Part shown: in pieces, positions 1,359-50,013 of the stretch
Numbering within the stretch: position 1 is the stretch's first letter
Layout: every line of letters starts with the position of its first letter
Assembly: GCF_000372065.1 (NCBI RefSeq)
Contig: NZ_AQVB01000005.1
Span: 104-64,103, forward strand
Length of the DNA: 64,000 nucleotides
Direction of reading: 5' to 3'
Origin: Oligella urethralis DSM 7531
GTDB lineage: Bacteria; Pseudomonadota; Gammaproteobacteria; Burkholderiales; Burkholderiaceae_B
Position numbers and translations under genes: made by a program
The notes under the pieces: model-generated
The model's input: the letters and a program-made list of their open reading frames with translations, nothing else
Told to the model about the DNA's origin: nothing
Database searches by the model: none

Positions 1359-1649
1359 TTATTTTTCAAACTGTGAGCGCAAATGCTCAGGAATTGGACG
1401 ATCGACTGGCGGCAGAAAGCGTGGTGCCTCAGCATCGGCACTACGATCAATCTTTAAACCCTGGCGGTTTTGCTTATTCACCAAAGGGATATCTCTATCC
1501 TGAGTAAAGGCTAAATAAATCGTAATAATACACGCCACAACAACAATCGCTGGTCCTGCCATCAGGAACCATGGCCAACGCTCCTTGTACCATGGTTTAC
1601 TTACTTGAGGCTCAATCGCGCCTACTTGATTTAATCCTTTTGAAGACAT
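1359..1649 (-). CDS. fixH: Short FixH/CcoH-like membrane protein
   Basis: This 96-residue protein follows ccoG in the cbb3 oxidase cluster. The N-terminal part (WYKERWPWFLMAGPAIVVV, residues 20-38) and one membrane helix at about 28-48 are characteristic of FixH/CcoH from Burkholderiales. After the helix comes a degenerate version of the family's conserved D-D-Y-Y-K-Q-G-L segment, here ending in RQGLKIDR. The usual periplasmic beta-rich domain that makes most FixH proteins about 160 residues is missing; the protein instead ends in a proline-rich tail. It probably still helps assembly of the oxidase, by gene position, but the family match covers only the first two thirds. Confidence 0.7.
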   Translation of the reverse strand: MSSKGLNQVGAIEPQVSKPWYKERWPWFLMAGPAIVVVACIITIYLAFTQDRDIPLVNKQNRQGLKIDRSADAEAPRFLPPVDRPIPEHLRSQFEK

Positions 1650-1662
1650 AATAAAACCTCAA

Positions 1663-3228
1663 TTATTCGGGTACAAAGAAACTGCTGGATTTATCGATTT
1701 TGAGCTCCTTGCCCTCATCAATACTACGCACATGGAAGTCCATATCATAGCGACCTACCGCACTACCCTCTACTGGAGCACGCACAATCAGTGGAATCCA
1801 TTGGTTGGTACGAGGTGAAACAACGATCGTATTAGAGCCACTATTCTCAAGATTGACATCCAGTTGTGACAGGGCAGGAGAAACAGCATCGATCCTAAAC
1901 TCACGGGTCTCGGAACTCATATTGACTAATAGAACGCGGTAAACGTTTTCATAGTAACCACCTGGCACCTCTCGACCTAATGAATTACGGTCACGCACCA
2001 CATCAAAGCGCAACTCGTTACGTAGGGCTAAGGAGGTCACAATGCTAGTAATAAAAATAACTAACAAGGTCAAATACACTAAGGTACGTGGTTTAAATAA
2101 ACGCTTACGCTCTTCCTTCTTAGTCAGTCCCATCTTGATGCTGTTTTCAGAGGTATAACGAATTAAGCCGCGGGGATAATTCATTTTATCCATCACATCA
2201 TCACAGGCGTCAATACAGGCACCACAGCCAATACACATATACTGTAAGCCATTGCGAATATCAATACCGGTAGGACAGACCTGTACACAGAGCGTACAGT
2301 CAATACAGTCACCTAAACCTAAAGCCTCAAGATCCGCCTTTTTGGAGCGTTTACCGCGTGGCTCACCGCGCTTCTGATCATAGGTTACGATCATTGTGTC
2401 CGCATCTACCATCACACTCTGGAAGCGCGCATAAGGACACATATAACGACAGACGTTTTCGCGCAAGAAACCAGCGGCTAACCAACAGAAACCACCATAG
2501 AGGAAAATCCAGAACCACTCCCAAAAACCAAGATCTAGTTTTAATAAGTTCGGAAATAACTCACGAATCGGTGAGAAATACGCAACAAAGGTAAAGCCCG
2601 TCCAAAAACCAACTAGGACCCATAAAATATGCTTAGTCGCCTTGATTCTAAACTTGCGTGCGCTCATCGGTGCTTCATCTAAGCGCATACGCTGAACTCG
2701 ATCACCCTCTACCCACTTCTCTATATACATAAAGATCTCCGTGTAGACGGTCTGCGGACAGGCGTAACCACAGAATAAACGGCCGGCAATCGCAGTAAAG
2801 AGAAACAGCCCATAGGCCGAAACGATCAAAATAATGGCCAGATAGAAGACATCTTGAGGCCATAGGACAAGACCAAATAAATAAAACTTACGCTCGACCA
2901 AATCAAATAACACGCTTTGGCGACCGTCCCAGTTGATCCAAGGTAAGCCGTAGAATAACACCTGGGTAAACCAGATTAAGGCAATACGCCAATTATTAAA
3001 ACGCCCCTTTACTGAACGCATATAAATTTTTTGCGTCAAGTCAACGAACTCAACCTCATCACCGTCCAGATTAGAGGGGATATGACCAACCACCGCAGTC
3101 TTTGGCTTGTGCTGGGCCTTGGATTTAGCATTTGCTGCGTGCTGACTATGACTTTCTGCTGCTTGAGGCTGCCACTCAGGCACCGCTTGGGGCTGCTCTG
3201 ATGGTTTTTGAGATTTATCTTCGCTCAT
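1663..3228 (-). CDS. ccoG: Cytochrome c oxidase accessory protein CcoG (polyferredoxin)
   Basis: CcoG is a membrane iron-sulfur protein linked to copper handling during cbb3 oxidase maturation. The 521-residue protein has several predicted membrane helices, the conserved GYACPQTVYTE and CRYMCPYARF segments, and two adjacent 4Fe-4S motifs, CIDCTLCVQVCP and CIGCGACIDAC, at about residues 308-342. An extended Ala/Lys/Gln-rich N-terminus of about 45 residues precedes the conserved core. A C-terminal immunoglobulin-like domain follows the last helix. It sits between ccoP and fixH on the same strand, 114 bp after ccoP. Confidence 0.93.
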   Translation of the reverse strand: MSEDKSQKPSEQPQAVPEWQPQAAESHSQHAANAKSKAQHKPKTAVVGHIPSNLDGDEVEFVDLTQKIYMRSVKGRFNNWRIALIWFTQVLFYGLPWINWDGRQSVLFDLVERKFYLFGLVLWPQDVFYLAIILIVSAYGLFLFTAIAGRLFCGYACPQTVYTEIFMYIEKWVEGDRVQRMRLDEAPMSARKFRIKATKHILWVLVGFWTGFTFVAYFSPIRELFPNLLKLDLGFWEWFWIFLYGGFCWLAAGFLRENVCRYMCPYARFQSVMVDADTMIVTYDQKRGEPRGKRSKKADLEALGLGDCIDCTLCVQVCPTGIDIRNGLQYMCIGCGACIDACDDVMDKMNYPRGLIRYTSENSIKMGLTKKEERKRLFKPRTLVYLTLLVIFITSIVTSLALRNELRFDVVRDRNSLGREVPGGYYENVYRVLLVNMSSETREFRIDAVSPALSQLDVNLENSGSNTIVVSPRTNQWIPLIVRAPVEGSAVGRYDMDFHVRSIDEGKELKIDKSSSFFVPE

Positions 3229-3342: not shown

Positions 3343-4263
3343 TTACTCGTTATTCGATAAACCCCAAACATAAGCAGTTAACACATCAATTTGCTCAGGT
3401 GTTAAGTAATGCTTTTGTGGTGGCATAATGTTAGTACGACCTTCCATAATCGTTTTAACGATGGTTTGGTGTGAAGAGCTACCTAACCAAATATCATCGG
3501 TTAAGTTAGGCGCACCTAGTAATGGATTGCCTGTAGCATCGACACCGTGACATGCCACACAAACCTTGTCATATTGCTGCTTACCCTTAGCAATGAGGGT
3601 AGCGTCAGCATTAAGACCAGAAAGTGAACGCACATAATGCGCAATGGCATTGGCATTATCCGTTTGCTCACCCGCAGTGGTACCCAAGGCCGCACCTAAT
3701 GGCGCCATTAAGCCAACGCGACCGTCAGTGATCACACCATGAATGTATTCTGGTGTACCAGCACCTAACCAATCATTATCAGTCAAATTAGGGAAGTCAG
3801 TTGCACCTCTAGCGTCAGAGCCATGGCACTGAGCACAGGTATTGAGGAATAAACGCTCACCAATAATACGGGCCTCGGGATCCTTGGCTAGTTCCTCTAC
3901 GCTCATATCCTTAAAGCGAGCATATACTGGTGCAATACTTTCGCGTAATTGCTCCTGACCCTGCTCTACCTCATGCGCCGCTTGCCAGTTTCTAAGGCCA
4001 CTCCATGAACCTACCGCTGGGTAAAGTACCATAATGCCCACACCAATCACGGTTAGACCGAGATACATAATAATCCACCAACGAGGTAGCGGATGGTTCA
4101 ACTCTCGAATACCGTCCCACTCGTGACCCGTATCTTCAGTTACAACCGTTTTTTGACCTAGCCAAGAACGTTGAGTCCATAAAAGCCAAAGTACAAAGAC
4201 TACCCCCAAGATTGAGACGACTGCGACCCATAACGCCCAGCCACTATTAACAAAATCACTCAT
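3343..4263 (-). CDS. ccoP: cbb3-type cytochrome c oxidase subunit III (diheme)
   Basis: This is the diheme c subunit that passes electrons to CcoO and CcoN. After the start at 4263 (MSDFVNSGW) come two membrane segments (about residues 8-28 and 55-75), then two cytochrome c domains with CAQCH and CVACH heme-binding motifs. Length is 306 residues, normal for the family. The start is chosen over an in-frame one seven codons upstream because AAGGA precedes it and because it gives an 8-nt overlap with the end of ccoQ, a usual arrangement for coupled translation. Confidence 0.93.
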   Translation of the reverse strand: MSDFVNSGWALWVAVVSILGVVFVLWLLWTQRSWLGQKTVVTEDTGHEWDGIRELNHPLPRWWIIMYLGLTVIGVGIMVLYPAVGSWSGLRNWQAAHEVEQGQEQLRESIAPVYARFKDMSVEELAKDPEARIIGERLFLNTCAQCHGSDARGATDFPNLTDNDWLGAGTPEYIHGVITDGRVGLMAPLGAALGTTAGEQTDNANAIAHYVRSLSGLNADATLIAKGKQQYDKVCVACHGVDATGNPLLGAPNLTDDIWLGSSSHQTIVKTIMEGRTNIMPPQKHYLTPEQIDVLTAYVWGLSNNE

Positions 4264-4441
4264 GATCCTTGTCCTTGCGCTCACTATCAGCGCTTAAATT
4301 TTTTTCGTCCTCTAGACTAAACGGCAGTAGGGCCGCTTCCTCGTTATCCTTACGGCGTTGCTTGGAAAAAGCCCACCACACAATACCGAGGAAAACAACA
4401 ATTGCCAAAAAGGTCGCAATACCGTTAAGCGCACCCCACAT
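4256..4441 (-). CDS. ccoQ: cbb3-type oxidase small subunit CcoQ
   Basis: This 61-residue protein has a single membrane helix at about residues 7-27 followed by a charged tail (FSKQRRKDNEEA), the usual pattern of CcoQ/FixQ. It lies between ccoO and ccoP, with a GAGGGAG ribosome-binding site before the ATG and an 8-nt overlap with ccoP. The role in the family is to stabilise the oxidase complex. Confidence 0.88.
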   Translation of the reverse strand: MWGALNGIATFLAIVVFLGIVWWAFSKQRRKDNEEAALLPFSLEDEKNLSADSERKDKDHE

Positions 4442-4458
4442 AGTTTAGCTCCCTCTAA

Positions 4459-5142
4459 TTACTTCGCTTCAGCTGTTGTATCACGTTGGCGCCATGCGTT
4501 CATATAGCCAACACCAAGACTCTGAAGAAAAGCCACCACGGCATCCTCTTCAGTCTTACCGACTAGGGCTGCTGGTGCCTTCTCGATTTCTTCTTCAGTG
4601 TACATAGGCTTACCGTCATGATGCTCACCTAGCCAGTTAAGCGCACGCATCCGGGCTTGTACATCAAAACCCTCGACACTCTTATGCTGCAACCAAGTAT
4701 AAGCAGGCATATTAGACTCAGCAACCACATCACGTGGATTACGTAAATGCACGCGATGCCATTCGTCCGAGTAACGACCACCCACACGAGCCAAGTCTGG
4801 ACCCATACGGCGAGAACCCCATAAGAAAGGATAGTCGTACACCGTCTCACCGGCTTCAGAGTATGGACCGTAACGCTGCACGTCAGAGTTTAACAGACGA
4901 ATCTGCTGACTATGACAGCCCACACAGCCCTCTTTGATATAGATATCACGACCGATCAACTCAAGTGGTTGATGCGGCTTAACACCCGCTGAAGGCTGGG
5001 TAGTTGAGTGTTGATGGAACAATGGAACAATTTGCACAAGTCCTGAAACACCTACCGTGATAAGGGTCAACACCATCAACATCGGTAGATTTCTCTCAAT
5101 CATCCCGTGAGAGAAAAATTTAACTTTTTTATCATCAGACAT
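4459..5142 (-). CDS. ccoO: cbb3-type cytochrome c oxidase subunit II (monoheme)
   Basis: CcoO is a membrane-anchored monoheme cytochrome c, 227 residues here. There is one N-terminal helix (about residues 19-37) and one heme motif CVGCH in GCVGCHSQQIR at about residue 73, with an axial methionine probably supplied by the NMPAY segment. It directly follows ccoN on the same strand with a 23-bp gap and an AAAGGG ribosome-binding site. Confidence 0.95.
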   Translation of the reverse strand: MSDDKKVKFFSHGMIERNLPMLMVLTLITVGVSGLVQIVPLFHQHSTTQPSAGVKPHQPLELIGRDIYIKEGCVGCHSQQIRLLNSDVQRYGPYSEAGETVYDYPFLWGSRRMGPDLARVGGRYSDEWHRVHLRNPRDVVAESNMPAYTWLQHKSVEGFDVQARMRALNWLGEHHDGKPMYTEEEIEKAPAALVGKTEEDAVVAFLQSLGVGYMNAWRQRDTTAEAK

Positions 5143-5165
5143 TTTTAAAACCCTTTATCTTCAAA

Positions 5166-6635
5166 TTATGCATTTGCTTCAGCAGCCACAACAGGTGCCG
5201 GCTTACCATGAGATGGCGCAGGTACCGGTGGGTTAACACCAGTGCGACCGATAACCGTAGCTAAGGTATTGAACAGCATAATCACAATACCGGTTAAGAA
5301 TAAACCACCACCGATTAGACGCATAATTAATAAGATTTTCTTCGAAGCGAGTGCCTGTACAAAGCTGTAAGTTAAGGTACCGTCAGCCTCAATAGAACGC
5401 CACATCAAGCCTTCCATCACACCGGCAATCCACATAGAGGCAATGTATAACACAATACCAATGGTAGCTAACCAGAAGTGTAATTCGACTAATGATTTTT
5501 TGTACATCTGATCACGACCCCATAAACGAGGAATCATGTAGTAGATAGAACCGAAAGAAATCATCGCAACCCAACCTAAAGCACCAGAGTGTACGTGTGC
5601 AACCGTCCACTCAGTATAGTGAGATAGGGAGTTAACCGTACGAATAGCCATCATTGAGCCTTCGAAGGTAGACATACCGTAGAAAGACAATGAAACCACT
5701 AGGAATTTCAAGATAGGATCGGTTCTAAGCTTATGCCATGCACCGGACAAGGTCATAATACCGTTAATCATACCGCCCCAAGATGGCGCTAATAAGATTA
5801 AGGAGAATAACATACCTAAACTTTGAGTCCAGTCAGGTAGTGAAGTGTATAGCAAATGGTGAGGACCTGCCCACATATAAGTAAAGATCAAGGCCCAGAA
5901 GTGAACAATGGATAAACGATAAGAATAAATCGGACGCTCGGCTTGTTTAGGCACGAAGTAGTACATCATACCCAAGAAACTGGTCGTTAAGAAAAAGCCT
6001 ACTGCGTTATGACCATACCACCACTGTGCCATCGCATCCTGTACGCCAGCATAGTAGGAGTATGATTTGAATAAACTCCAAGGCACTTGCAGGTTATTAA
6101 AGATGTGCAACATGGCAATGGTAATAATATATGCACCATAGAACCAGTTTGCCACATAAATATGCTTAGTGCGACGCTTAGCAACAGTACCGAAGAATAC
6201 GATTGCATAAGCCACCCAAACCAAGGTAATTAGGATATCAAGTACCCACTCGGTCTCAGCATACTCCTTGGATGAGGTGTAACCCATCGAAAAGGAAACC
6301 GCAGCAGCCGCCCAAATAATCATCCAGCCATAAAAAGTAAAGCTGGCTAACCACGGGGCAAACAGCGTGGTATGACAGGTACGTTGTACCACATAGTATG
6401 AGGTCGCAAATAATGCACTACCACCAAAACCGAAAATCACCAAGTTTGTATGAACTGGACGTAAACGCCCATATCCAAAAAACTCGTTAAAGCTCAGCTC
6501 CGGGAACACGAGCTGGCTAGCAATAAATACACCCATTGCCATGCCGAGCACACCCCAGATAACTGTCGCGATCGAGAACTGTCGGACTATCTTATAGTTA
6601 AAGGTTTCCGACCCAATCACATTTTGAGTACTCAT
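5166..6635 (-). CDS. ccoN: cbb3-type cytochrome c oxidase catalytic subunit I
   Basis: Heme-copper oxidase catalytic subunit that reduces oxygen to water at low oxygen tension. The 489-residue product has about twelve membrane helices and conserved histidines, including [32 protein letters not shown] and [12 protein letters not shown]. The start at 6635 ([10 protein letters not shown]) is preferred: a GAGGG/AGGT ribosome-binding site precedes it, and the 42 in-frame codons upstream do not resemble the family. It is the first gene of ccoNOQP, with an FNR box about 190 bp upstream. Confidence 0.95.
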
Positions 6636-6939
6636 AGTACCTACCCTCTTTGTAAACAAAAAACTTATTAATACTAGTAAAGCTTGATTGCGGAAGAAGC
6701 GCTTTATAGTATGGGTTAATAAGAAAGAAACTAAGCTAGTTGTAACAAAACCCAGTCCCAAGTTATAACATTTTACTACAAAAGCTAAGCATTATGTATT
6801 AACTAAAAACCTTGTTCTGATGTAAATCAAAGTTGAAGTGCAGATATTACCCTATTCTGTGGAATTTTTTATGATTATTCCGCTACTCAATGATTTTAAG
6901 AAAGCTTAGGGTGTGCGCTAGCAGGATGACATTGAACCA
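6636..6939. other. Upstream region of ccoN, no gene
   Basis: This 304-bp stretch holds the ccoN promoter (see the FNR box at 6817-6830). No convincing reading frame was seen on either strand. The half nearest ccoS shows no recognisable signal. Confidence 0.6.
6791..6830 (-). promoter_or_regulatory. FNR-activated promoter of ccoNOQP
   Basis: Read on the reverse strand, TTGATTTACATCAG (6830-6817) matches the FNR box with one mismatch in the last base. A -10-like CATAAT lies at 6796-6791, placing the box centre about 40 bp before the expected transcription start, the usual position for FNR class II activation. No good -35 element is present, in keeping with activator dependence. Confidence 0.75.
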
Positions 6940-7125
6940 TCAGCGATGACTTATTTTATGCTGATCGCCATTTAGATGACTCGTACTATCATCATCATAA
7001 AGAATGGAATCACCCTTTTCATCAATATCATCATATTGACCTTTAAATACCGCCCAATATAAAAAGAAACTGATAAAGCCAATAAATACAATCGTTAGGC
7101 TACCGAGAATTAAATAGATTTTCAT
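6940..7125 (-). CDS. ccoS: cbb3 oxidase maturation protein CcoS
   Basis: This 61-residue protein has one membrane helix (residues 4-26) followed by FLYWAVFKGQYDDIDEKG, which is the conserved CcoS signature. CcoS is needed for cofactor insertion into the cbb3 oxidase. It lies 59 bp downstream of the shortened ccoI-like gene on the same strand, as expected for a ccoIS pair. Confidence 0.88.
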   Translation of the reverse strand: MKIYLILGSLTIVFIGFISFFLYWAVFKGQYDDIDEKGDSILYDDDSTSHLNGDQHKISHR

Positions 7126-7184: not shown

Positions 7185-8177
7185 CTACTGCATTACTGCG
7201 TTTCTTGCTTCCAGCTCAGAGCGGAAGCGCTTATATAAGCGCCAGCCCATGAGACCAACCCACATGGAGGAGATAAACATAATAATGGCAGCTAACCACG
7301 GCGACACCAAACCAATCATTGCCAGTGGCGTCATCAACAGATGAAAAACAATGGAGACAGTTAAACAAAAACGTGCAGTGTGACGCGTTCTCTGCAAGAT
7401 TGACTCAAGCAAGGTCTCATCAACTTGTGATGCGGCAGCGGCATTAATTAACACAGTACGGGCAGCGGCGTAGCAAGACGGCACCGACATAGCCATTGCA
7501 CAGGGGCAACTCATCACAAACAGTGAAACCGTCACTGCTAGGGCATGAGCCGGATCAATATAAAAATACCACACTAAACCACTGACCACCGCCAGGGCTA
7601 TCTGTATCATCACAAAGTAAAAGGCATAACGATCCGCATGCGCCATATCCTCATCACGACACTGCTTAATTCTGTCGAGCACATGGTGCTCACCAGCGAT
7701 ATATGATGACTGCACGGCAATATACTCTAAATAACGTGCCGTCAACAAAAAGGCAATAAACATTACGATAGAATCGTAATACACCTCACCCTGATGATAA
7801 ATGGTGGTATGCACGCTAGGAAAAAAGGCCACTGCAATTCCCAACGCCACGGGTAAATTCATATTGACCATGCTATGGCGATGCGCAAACTCACTATCGG
7901 CGGCAAAGAGTCCCTTCCAGATGGGTACTGCACAATAAAAAAGTACCGGAATAGTCAGCAACAAGCCGATCCAATTTAATAATACCAGAGCAACCTCAAG
8001 CGACTCTTGAATATCCGTGCCCATGTACTGATGCTTGAAGTAGCCAGGCGCAGCAAACATCATCACCTGCATCATAATCAACCACGACAAGCCTAAACGC
8101 ACCACCATGCGGCGACGCTCTAAACGCTCAGCCGCTGGCAGATCCTTTGGTATGGCAAAAATTGAAACCGCTTTCAT
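7185..8177 (-). CDS. Membrane-only CcoI-like copper P-type ATPase remnant without soluble domains
   Basis: This gene occupies the ccoI position before ccoS but encodes only 330 residues instead of roughly 750-800. Eight hydrophobic segments are visible (about residues 28-46, 64-82, 105-122, 134-150, 186-205, 211-230, 271-290 and 293-312), the number expected for copper P1B ATPases. The CPC motif is at 224-226 (SCPCAMAMS). The last helix keeps a MFISS segment like the family's M-x-x-S-S, and PWLAAI resembles the end of CcoI. Absent are the N-terminal CxxC domain, the actuator TGE loop (about 30 residues join helices 4 and 5), and the whole phosphorylation/nucleotide domain with DKTGT and GDGxND (about 30 residues join helices 6 and 7). 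The helix-7 Tyr-Asn pair appears as Phe-His. The frame is open and free of stops. It cannot hydrolyse ATP as drawn; a structural or copper-binding role is inference. Confidence 0.75.
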   Translation of the reverse strand: MKAVSIFAIPKDLPAAERLERRRMVVRLGLSWLIMMQVMMFAAPGYFKHQYMGTDIQESLEVALVLLNWIGLLLTIPVLFYCAVPIWKGLFAADSEFAHRHSMVNMNLPVALGIAVAFFPSVHTTIYHQGEVYYDSIVMFIAFLLTARYLEYIAVQSSYIAGEHHVLDRIKQCRDEDMAHADRYAFYFVMIQIALAVVSGLVWYFYIDPAHALAVTVSLFVMSCPCAMAMSVPSCYAAARTVLINAAAASQVDETLLESILQRTRHTARFCLTVSIVFHLLMTPLAMIGLVSPWLAAIIMFISSMWVGLMGWRLYKRFRSELEARNAVMQ

Positions 8178-47712: not shown

Positions 47713-50013
47713 CTATAGAGGCGCTTTAAAGCTTTTTAAACGCAAGGCATTCGTCAGCACGAAGACGCTTGACAAAGCCATTGCCCCAGCAGCAAACATA
47801 GGCGACAACAAGATCCCCTTAAACGGATAGAGAATACCGGCCGCCACGGGTATTAGCGCTGTATTATAGACAAAGGCCCAAAATAAGTTCTGATGGATAT
47901 TTTTTATGGTCGCCTGCGAAAGAGCAAGGGCATTAGGCACGCCATTTAGGCTACCCGACATCAGCACCACATCCGCCGCTTCCATTGCCACATCCGTACC
48001 GGTACCGATGGCAATACCCACATCGGCTTCAGCTAGTGCTGGTGCATCATTAATCCCATCACCCACAAAGGCAACCGCACCATATTGCTTACGTAAAGCG
48101 TTAATCTGCTCCAGTTTATCCTGCGGCAACACCTCTGCCACCACCTCATCAATACCAAGACGCTTAGCGATGGCTTCCGCAGTTTGTTGCTTATCCCCAG
48201 TAATCATCACTACCTTAAGACCTAAGTCGTGCAAGGCCTGAACCGCTGCGGGGGTACTCTCCTTAATGGGATCGGAGACCGCAATAATGGCAGCCAATTT
48301 ACCATCAATAGCTGCATACATCGGCGACTGAGCCTCATTCGCTAAACGCAAGGCAGTCGCTTCAAACTGACTAGGATCTAAGCCTAAAGAGCGCATGAAG
48401 CGATCTGCGCCGATCGCAACGCTGCGACCCTCGACCTGCGCTCTTACCCCCATCCCGCTAATGGCTTCAAACTGAGTTAGTGTAGGAAGGCTCAGCCCTT
48501 CAGCCTCAGCCGCTGCCACAATCGCATGCGCAATCGGATGCTCAGATTGCTGCTCTACTGCAGCGATTAAGGCTAATACCTCAGAGCGCTGAAAGCCCGC
48601 AGCAGTCTCGAGTGCCGTCATGGTTGGACGCCCCAGGGTTAAGGTACCTGTTTTGTCGACTGCCACTACCTTAGCATCTTTAAGGCTTTGTAAGGCATCG
48701 CCTTTGCGAAATAACACACCCAACTCGGCACCGCGCCCGGTACCCACCATAATTGAAGTCGGTGTCGCCAAGCCCATCGCACATGGGCAAGCAATAATCA
48801 ATACCGCCACGGCATTGACAAGCGCATAGCTTAAGGCTGGTTGCGGTCCTAATACCAACCATAGTACAAAGGTGATAAAGGCTAATAAGATGACCGCTGG
48901 CACAAAGAAATAGGTGACGCGATTGACGACCGATTGAATTGGTAATTTAGCCGCTTGTGCCTGCTCTACCAAACTAATAATCTGCGACAAAACCGTCTTC
49001 TCTCCTACAGCACTTGCCTTAAAAGTAAAAGCACCCTGCTGATTAATGGTGCCGCCAATTAACTGACTACCCGGCACTTTTTCAACGGGAATCGGCTCAC
49101 CGCTAATCATGGCCTCATCAACAAAGCTCTGCCCCTCCAGCAAGATACCGTCTACCGCAATTCGTTCACCGGGACGCACTTGTAACACATCATCTAACTG
49201 CACCTCTGCGAGCGCTATTTGCTGCCATTCGCCGTTACGTAGTACCCGGGCCTCCTTGGGCTGGAGCCCAACTAAACGCTGAATTGCTGCTGAGGTACGA
49301 CCTTTGGCTTTAGCCTCTAAATAGCGACCGAATAAAATCAAGGTGACAATCACCGCTGCCGACTCATAATAGACATGGACTGAAGCCGCAGGCAACACAA
49401 AAGGGAAAAACGTGGCTACCACTGAAAAACCATAAGCCGCTAGCGTACCGATAGCAACCAAGGAATTCATATCTGGTCCCATACGCAATAAGGCAGGAAT
49501 ACCGATTTGATAAAAGCGGCGACCGGGAAAGCTTAATACCAAGCTGGTTAATAAAAATTGTAAATACCAGCTATTGTGCAAACCGATACGAGTTTCCACC
49601 CATTGCTGCATGGCGGGTATTAAATGCGCACCCATCTCCAAAATAAACACCGGTAGACTAAGCAGCAAGGCAACGATCAAATCCCTTTTTAAAAGCGCTT
49701 CTTCTCGATCTTTGCGTTGCGCTAACTGCTCCACCCATGAGCTGTCAACAGGCGAGCGTGCCTCGGACTCAGTCCCTGTCATCGAGGACTGGGGCAATAC
49801 CGTTGCGCTAAAACCAGCTTTATGAATCACCGCCTTAATCGCATCAATCTCGGCAGGCGCAGTGGCATCCAAAACAATATCCGCTCGCTCAGTGGCTAAA
49901 TTGACATTAATTGCTGCTACGCCCTCCATACGTCCCACTAGCCGCTCTATGCGGGCTACACACGAGGCACATGTCATACCCTCAATGGTCATGCTTAGAT
50001 GCGTATTAGACAT
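47713..50013 (-). CDS. copA: Copper-exporting P-type ATPase CopA
   Basis: Full-length P1B copper ATPase, 766 residues. One N-terminal metal-binding domain with CASC (residues 15-18) is followed by eight membrane helices with CPC in [10 protein letters not shown], the actuator [13 protein letters not shown] with the phosphorylated Asp, SEHPIAHAI and [16 protein letters not shown]. It exports Cu(I) from the cytoplasm. Sequence around helices 1-4 is CopA1-like rather than CcoI-like. It is the only complete copper ATPase in the window, so comparison with the shortened one at 7185-8177 is direct. Confidence 0.92.

Follow-up and report, generated by a model that had tools for sequence, protein, structure and literature searches.

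CcoI/FixI proteins are CopA2-type P1B ATPases. CcoI is described as the centre from which cbb3 oxidase is supplied with copper at the expense of ATP, and in the available part of a study in R. capsulatus neither extra CopA nor extra copper is a substitute for it (PMC8475189). According to the same part, a ccoI deletion was rescued by neither copper nor more CopA, and a mutant of the CcoI membrane site gave no cbb3 support at all, the N-terminal sites mattering less (PMC8475189). On these excerpts the membrane site seems to act beyond export, because copper and CopA fail to rescue and the membrane-site mutant fails, and a role of CcoI besides pumping comes into consideration. Here we analysed 64,000 nucleotides of Oligella urethralis DSM 7531 (assembly GCF_000372065.1, contig NZ_AQVB01000005.1, positions 104 to 64,103; hereafter the window), in which the gene at the ccoI position encodes a protein that we call mini-CcoI. 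In our reading, which we hold at a probability of roughly 0.5, mini-CcoI would be a non-ATPase derivative of CcoI that arose once in the ancestor of most Alcaligenaceae and acts as an ATP-independent Cu(I) relay for CuB.

The open reading frame starts with ATG and contains no internal stop over 330 amino acids (aa), with both internal joins in frame. In an alignment with full-length CcoI of the same order, helices MA, MB and M1-M6 are retained and three parts are missing. The N-terminal metal-binding region is gone, as are the actuator (A) domain, which would follow M2, before M3, and the phosphorylation (P) and nucleotide-binding (N) domains with DKTGT, which would link M4 to M5. DKTGT, TGE and CxxC are all absent from the 330-aa sequence. 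The one Pfam match was the tail of E1-E2_ATPase (PF00122, residues 180-240, E 2.9e-7, profile positions 114-175 of 181); the scan gave no PF00702 match and, unlike a full-length CcoI (L123), no HMA or PF12156 domain. The NCBIfam copper-ATPase model TIGR01511 scored 54.3 bits against a cut-off of 397 and matched all 56 members of the short form (minis) that were scanned. Neither Pfam nor NCBIfam gave a dedicated model, so that annotation is affected: these proteins match a copper-ATPase model and have none of their own. A predicted structure of mini-CcoI shows eight long helices, with M4 broken at residues 222-225, at the CPC motif; Foldseek alone gave TM-scores of only 0.38-0.47 against copper ATPases. 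The model indicates that mini-CcoI has the homologous eight-helix membrane fold of P1B ATPases.

The initial annotation, made from the letters alone, had listed a stop-free frame of 330 codons with both joins in frame, eight membrane segments, CPC and a motif like M-x-x-S-S in the last helix, and had noted the missing CxxC domain, actuator loop, DKTGT and ATP-binding domain; it had named no strand, and the frame lies on the minus strand. The last-helix motif reads M300-F-I-S303-S304. Motif search, Pfam and alignment agree on these losses, and the description of the membrane core was right save for one inexact point, as M5 has FH and not the canonical YN. Among 108 distinct minis, none contains DKTG or CxxC; the letters TGE occur somewhere in three. 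Judged from its sequence, mini-CcoI lacks what defines a P-type ATPase (DKTGT with P and N domain, an actuator with TGE, and YN) and is best placed with the CcoI assembly factor, as a variant form of it, and not with the P-type ATPases. With no ATP-binding or phosphorylation domain left, ATP-dependent Cu(I) export is predicted to be lost.

CPC, the YN of M5 and the Met/Ser of M6 form the copper path of these pumps. C224, P225, C226, H279, M300 and S303 are identical in 108/108 distinct minis (near-duplicate loci and the partial L212 omitted), and residue 304 is Ser in 105. Position 278 holds Trp in 98 and Phe in ten. The 33 full-length CcoI compared have both CPC Cys and Asn at 279 throughout, with Tyr at 278 in 32, and the change from Asn to His at 279 is general in minis. 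Four further positions frequently carry Met in minis (M222 in 102, M230 in 95, M282 in 89, M228 in 87); the full-length proteins have Val/Ile at 222 (31), Leu at 228 (30) and 230 (32) and Ala at 282 (28). All four extra Met occur in 82 of the 108 minis, three in five, two in nine and one in 12, and those at 228, 230 and 282 are missing chiefly in genera g59 and g36. Near-universality of all gained Met, apparent in 88 sequences, was dropped once more distant members were added. Outside the copper site R21, W32, N68, W69, Q192 and W203 are invariant.

Of 41 genomes in a first survey, 36 gave a match; in 17 it was a homologue of the same length at near-full coverage, and these 17 all belong to the family of the window. 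A scan of named contigs gave 87 relatives, of which the 80 listed are Alcaligenaceae throughout by record title (Oligella, Pelistega, Taylorella, Brackiella, Advenella, Alcaligenes, Achromobacter, Bordetella, Castellaniella, Pusillimonas and others). From the two sets 97 homologous proteins of 309-341 aa were taken (some loci twice; 88 distinct), so the short form is not confined to one assembly. A profile (A1) built from 56 minis matched 254 of 268 family genomes at E <= 0.001, the weaker matches with visible frames being other P-type ATPases. At a class limit of E < 1e-60, 182 of the 268 carry a mini, part of them assigned by E-value without a displayed frame; two (G118, G121) have one TGA inside the match. 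Most relatives are short at this locus, whereas full-length ccoI in relatives had been named in the initial annotation as refuting; 20 of the 268 genomes are classed as full-length carriers instead. A complete full-length frame was seen for ten of these 20, the others being classed by E-value (G145, G184, G185, G188, G210, G211, G214, G216, G217) or from two cut pieces (G243). In the order, 249 of 399 genomes matched at E <= 1e-30; among the rows listed the only minis were eight from the window's family, and the best E-values of all 249 gave no sign of a second origin, none from outside the family being below 1e-49. In the phylum, 118 of 398 genomes matched at E <= 1e-25, the sole mini being that of the window and the other 117 frames measuring 759-1086 aa. 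Three candidates in the order with frames of 404-476 aa (G433, G502, G368) were rejected as minis: only their first helices match, as in full-length proteins, and two lie at contig starts. A shortened copy in G104 was likewise dismissed, an assembly gap (Ns) lying there beside a contig end. Two mini copies occur on two contigs of the Achromobacter ruhlandii LMG 1866 assembly (L101, L102), and G061 has a copy on each of contigs C19 and C47, each beside a ccoN match and one with a TGA inside.

The gene keeps close company with the oxidase. Of the 80 named loci, 77 have ccoN and 75 have ccoS downstream of the mini in the same orientation; cysM lies upstream in only 13, and the conserved unit therefore starts with the mini. 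A CcoN search of the 268 family genomes gave 214 matches at E <= 1e-60, 203 of them strong (< 1e-100). Strong ccoN is found in 180 of the 182 mini genomes, the exceptions being G059, with a contig end ~0.6 kb past the mini, and G086, where ccoN matches less well (3.8e-96). Strong ccoN and full-length CcoI coincide in 19 genomes, and the twentieth full-length carrier, G232, has a partial ccoN match only. Four genomes combine strong ccoN with neither form, three at contig ends (G002, G005, G133) and one 83% complete (G163). Leaving aside full-length carriers, the co-occurrence table reads 180, 2, 4 and 62 (Fisher p ~6e-51, descriptive since genomes are not independent; 34 ccoN-negative genomes were deduced by exclusion from the match list). 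Mini-CcoI is linked to ccoS/ccoNOQP and present with ccoN, as is characteristic of CcoI.

A tree calculated from 239 membrane columns, with the six changed copper-site columns removed and near-duplicate loci omitted, covered 34 minis together with 33 full-length CcoI; it is midpoint-rooted, its bootstrap was not quite settled and several full-length rows are long-branched. All minis fall on one side of a single branch (100/99) with a long stem and have as their neighbours the full-length CcoI from a different family within the order and those of G209 and G254 (84/88); nine full-length CcoI of the window's family are scattered over several positions. As a clade among full-length CcoI of the order, mini-CcoI descends from CcoI according to these sequences. 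The full-length CcoI of G254 (L191, G254:C9:14500-22500, frame 3922-6405; 827 aa) has a long branch and belongs to a ccoN-bearing genome. In its genus, g59, it is the sole full-length carrier seen, and 25 of the 31 other genomes score as mini carriers; replacement or retention are both possible. Two divergent full-length CcoI of the window's family (L192 and L193, from G186 and G174, genus g47) group with that of G019.

The ratio of nonsynonymous to synonymous substitution rates (dN/dS; Nei-Gojobori, 1087 pairs with dS 0.15-1.2) had a median of 0.31 and a maximum of 0.69, below the value near 1 named beforehand as refuting, with medians of 0.20 for the membrane segments and 0.50 for the two join loops; the values are rough, as pairs overlap and many genomes are GC-rich. 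Among five genomes of the window's genus dS was saturated in nine of ten pairs, and dN was 0.06-0.18. Mini-CcoI is under purifying selection. A decaying remnant or assembly artefact without function is hardly credible: the gene recurs in independent assemblies across the family, forms one clade with invariant motifs, and has the same possible copper ligand, His279, at one place in every member, which makes decay unlikely. Artefact, frameshift and pseudogene were ruled out by independent assemblies and conservation, and the initial view of a selected remnant is upheld by the same-length homologues, the dN/dS and the motifs. The case that speaks for decay is G120, counted as a carrier though interrupted, in which ~1.07 kb interrupts the mini (L196, G120:C1:2210500-2218500) and ccoN matches less strongly. 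In that genome the gene seems to fail along with the oxidase, as expected for a gene retained only for a working oxidase.

A core that still pumps, driven in trans by soluble domains that a different P-type ATPase (CopA, for instance) lends in a hetero-oligomer or that a separate gene encodes, is very improbable. A partner would be at hand, since nine of 12 mini genomes inspected have a copper ATPase (one as a cut frame only) and the three in which none was seen (G201, G268, G276) are fragmented and 90-92% complete. The covalent domain-helix links needed for coupling are gone, and the detached domain gene proposed in the initial annotation did not turn up: PF00122 matches in the own genome were limited to the mini, CopA and one ZntA-like pump, with no orphan A domain, and tblastn with the A and P/N domains of CopA found no such gene in the flanks of the 80 homologous loci. 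CopA and the ZntA-like pump are the two complete P-type ATPases of the own genome; of nine PF00702 matches two lie in these, and the other seven were not typed. The presence of a copper ATPase in nine of 12 mini genomes is compatible with CopA as copper source, without showing contact. Five carriers with weak CopA scores (G021, G234, G235, G236, G238) were considered as lacking any copper ATPase, and this was rejected, each having one CopA-like pump. These small genomes (L205-L209) have a single CopA-like ATPase of 712-749 aa with one CxxC and 33-36% identity to the window CopA. G234 and G235 (1.6 and 1.7 Mb, 100% complete) have a mini and one complete P-type ATPase each, CopA-like by 33% identity and 371-382 bits to the window CopA against <= 320 bits to six CcoI.

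Two COX1 proteins are present in the own genome, CcoN and a NorB-type nitric oxide reductase; because the latter is NorB-type, cbb3 is the only heme-copper oxidase. A COX1 search of 20 genomes, 18 of them mini carriers, found CcoN alone in G011, G195, G234 and G235, CcoN with one long frame of 748-823 aa in nine mini carriers (G000, G001, G007, G021, G236-G240; NorB-like typing in G000 only), and further COX1 proteins in five (G004, G008, G010, G102, G103). Genomes with cbb3 as the only heme-copper oxidase have no full-length CcoI. Over 3207 bases no difference separates the G234 locus from that of T. asinigenitalis ATCC 700933 (L046), so G234 is this organism or a near-copy. The excerpt available reports a single terminal oxidase, a cbb3 enzyme, for Taylorella and a dependence of T. 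equigenitalis on oxidative phosphorylation (PMC3250509). In Taylorella, cbb3 activity is expected although no full-length CcoI is present.

In the proposed mechanism all soluble domains would have been lost once, in the ancestor of most Alcaligenaceae, and active Cu(I) export left to CopA. Cu(I), either delivered at the periplasmic face by CopA and periplasmic chaperones or produced when CcoG reduces copper, would bind the membrane core at CPC, His279 and the M6 Met/Ser, plus extra Met in most members, and pass to the CuB site of CcoN during cbb3 assembly. Copper would then probably be handed to the respiratory enzyme instead of being pumped. Copper binding, direction, donor and direct CcoN contact are what we infer from sequence; the copper-binding scaffold suggested initially is partly borne out, as the copper site is retained and altered, binding itself being predicted.

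Two other functions fit part of these data. A passive Cu(I) channel, a core freed from ATP gating with flux down the gradient, most likely inward, would tie copper uptake to the oxidase operon. The Met residues that M4 and M5 have acquired next to the retained MA Met cluster resemble Met-lined copper channels, and the model contains the complete helix bundle. We regard a channel as unlikely: the company of ccoN suggests oxidase assembly and not general uptake, inward flux alone would not load CuB, and a strong invariant Cys/His site would presumably trap rather than conduct. Rather improbable, too, is a pure assembly scaffold, a membrane platform for CcoN, CcoS or CcoG without copper handling. 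Gene position, ccoN co-occurrence and the invariant residues outside the copper site would suit it, but it needs neither the invariant Cys224, Cys226, Met300 and Ser303 nor the His that replaces Asn279 in 108/108.

Several points weigh against a Cu(I) relay. The available part of PMC8475189 shows R. capsulatus CcoI to be an ATP-driven exporter, hence the ancestor did pump. For B. bronchiseptica, which may or may not carry a mini in the strain concerned, the part available reports that no strain relying on cco alone could be obtained although ccoN is highly transcribed (PMC11257404). The join loops are loosely held, given their median dN/dS of 0.50, and Met at 228, 230 and 282 is lacking in part of the members, with 12 of the 108 minis having only one of the four extra Met.

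The gene order on the minus strand is cysM, mini-CcoI, ccoS, ccoN, ccoO, ccoQ, ccoP, ccoG and a short fixH/ccoH. The ccoN start was set at ATG, the listed open reading frame starting at 6761 with TTG. The names ccoO and ccoQ are our assumption for the frames concerned, as is the consensus that we take for an FNR box. A perfect FNR-box-like site lies at 467-480 beside a Crp/Fnr-family gene (556-1284), and the window has nine such sites against 2.95 expected. A plus-strand frame at 3-341 presumably resembles an IS200-type transposase.

Table 1. Coordinates of mini-CcoI, its sequence features and other genes and sites of the window.
Feature	Position	Strand	Basis or remark
mini-CcoI, CcoI-type copper P-type ATPase membrane core without soluble domains	7185..8177	minus	330 aa
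CPC motif, helix M4, residues 224-226	7500..7508	minus	
His279 in helix M5, where the canonical YN motif has Asn	7341..7343	minus	
M6 copper motif M-F-I-S-S, residues 300-304	7266..7280	minus	
Join 1, short loop replacing the actuator domain, ~residues 157-164	7686..7709	minus	alignment with full-length CcoI and CopA; boundaries approximate
Join 2, loop replacing the phosphorylation and nucleotide domains, ~residues 240-262	7392..7460	minus	alignment; boundaries approximate
cysM	9112-8195	minus	
ccoS, cbb3 oxidase maturation protein	6940..7125	minus	TIGR00847 35.2 bits (cut-off 28.35); PF03597 FixS
ccoN, cbb3 catalytic subunit	5166..6635	minus	translation; PF00115 match
ccoO (presumed)	4459..5142	minus	open reading frame between ccoN and ccoP
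ccoQ (presumed)	4256..4441	minus	open reading frame and position
ccoP	3343..4284	minus	PF14715 FixP_N and cytochrome domains
ccoG, cupric reductase of cbb3 assembly	1663..3228	minus	PF13746, PF11614 FixG_C
ccoH (FixH-like, short)	1359..1649	minus	PF05751 27.9 bits (cut-off 23)
FNR-box-like site upstream of ccoN	6817..6830	plus	pattern search, palindromic consensus, 1 mismatch
CopA, complete copper ATPase and probable provider of exported Cu(I)	47713..50013	minus	TIGR01511 591 bits (cut-off 397); PF00403 HMA, PF00122, PF00702

A literature search covering papers outside subscription found no description of a truncated CcoI or of a CcoI without ATPase domains, and no paper joining ccoI with Alcaligenaceae; in the available parts of Bordetella copper and oxidase papers (PMC6769254, PMC13038864, PMC11257404, PMC10903467) mini-CcoI is unmentioned. 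The protein would be a separation-of-function mutant supplied by evolution; among the members of its family are Achromobacter, Alcaligenes, Taylorella and some Bordetella. More tentatively, a P-type ATPase lineage may have given up ATP and turned into membrane copper-transfer proteins of a new class, a cbb3 CuB insertase with a rebuilt Cys2-His-Met site; if this is true, pumping and insertion would be separable jobs of CcoI everywhere. To our knowledge, a P-type ATPase turned non-ATPase while retaining and changing its ion site is an unusual case.

The mirror image of mini-CcoI is MJ0968 of Methanocaldococcus jannaschii, a soluble P-type ATPase consisting of the catalytic part without a membrane domain. 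CTR-type channels provide a Met-lined Cu(I) membrane path, one possible mode for the mini, with an unrelated fold and no CPC. Cox11/CtaG is the CuB insertion factor of aa3 and not of cbb3 oxidases and is unrelated to mini-CcoI in sequence and fold; common to both is the proposed ATP-independent copper delivery to CuB of a heme-copper oxidase. CtaG is needed for aa3, as stated in the available part of PMC12617631. CopA, a CopA1-type exporter, differs from mini-CcoI as a complete pump encoded elsewhere in the same genome. With CcoI/FixI mini-CcoI shares the place before ccoS-ccoNOQP, the homologous eight-helix core, CPC, MxxSS and the MA Met cluster, and presumably the loading of CuB in CcoN; in contrast to CcoI/FixI, it has no metal-binding, A, P and N domains and hence no ATP-driven cycle, its M5 has W/F-H in place of YN, and most members have gained Met in M4 and M5.
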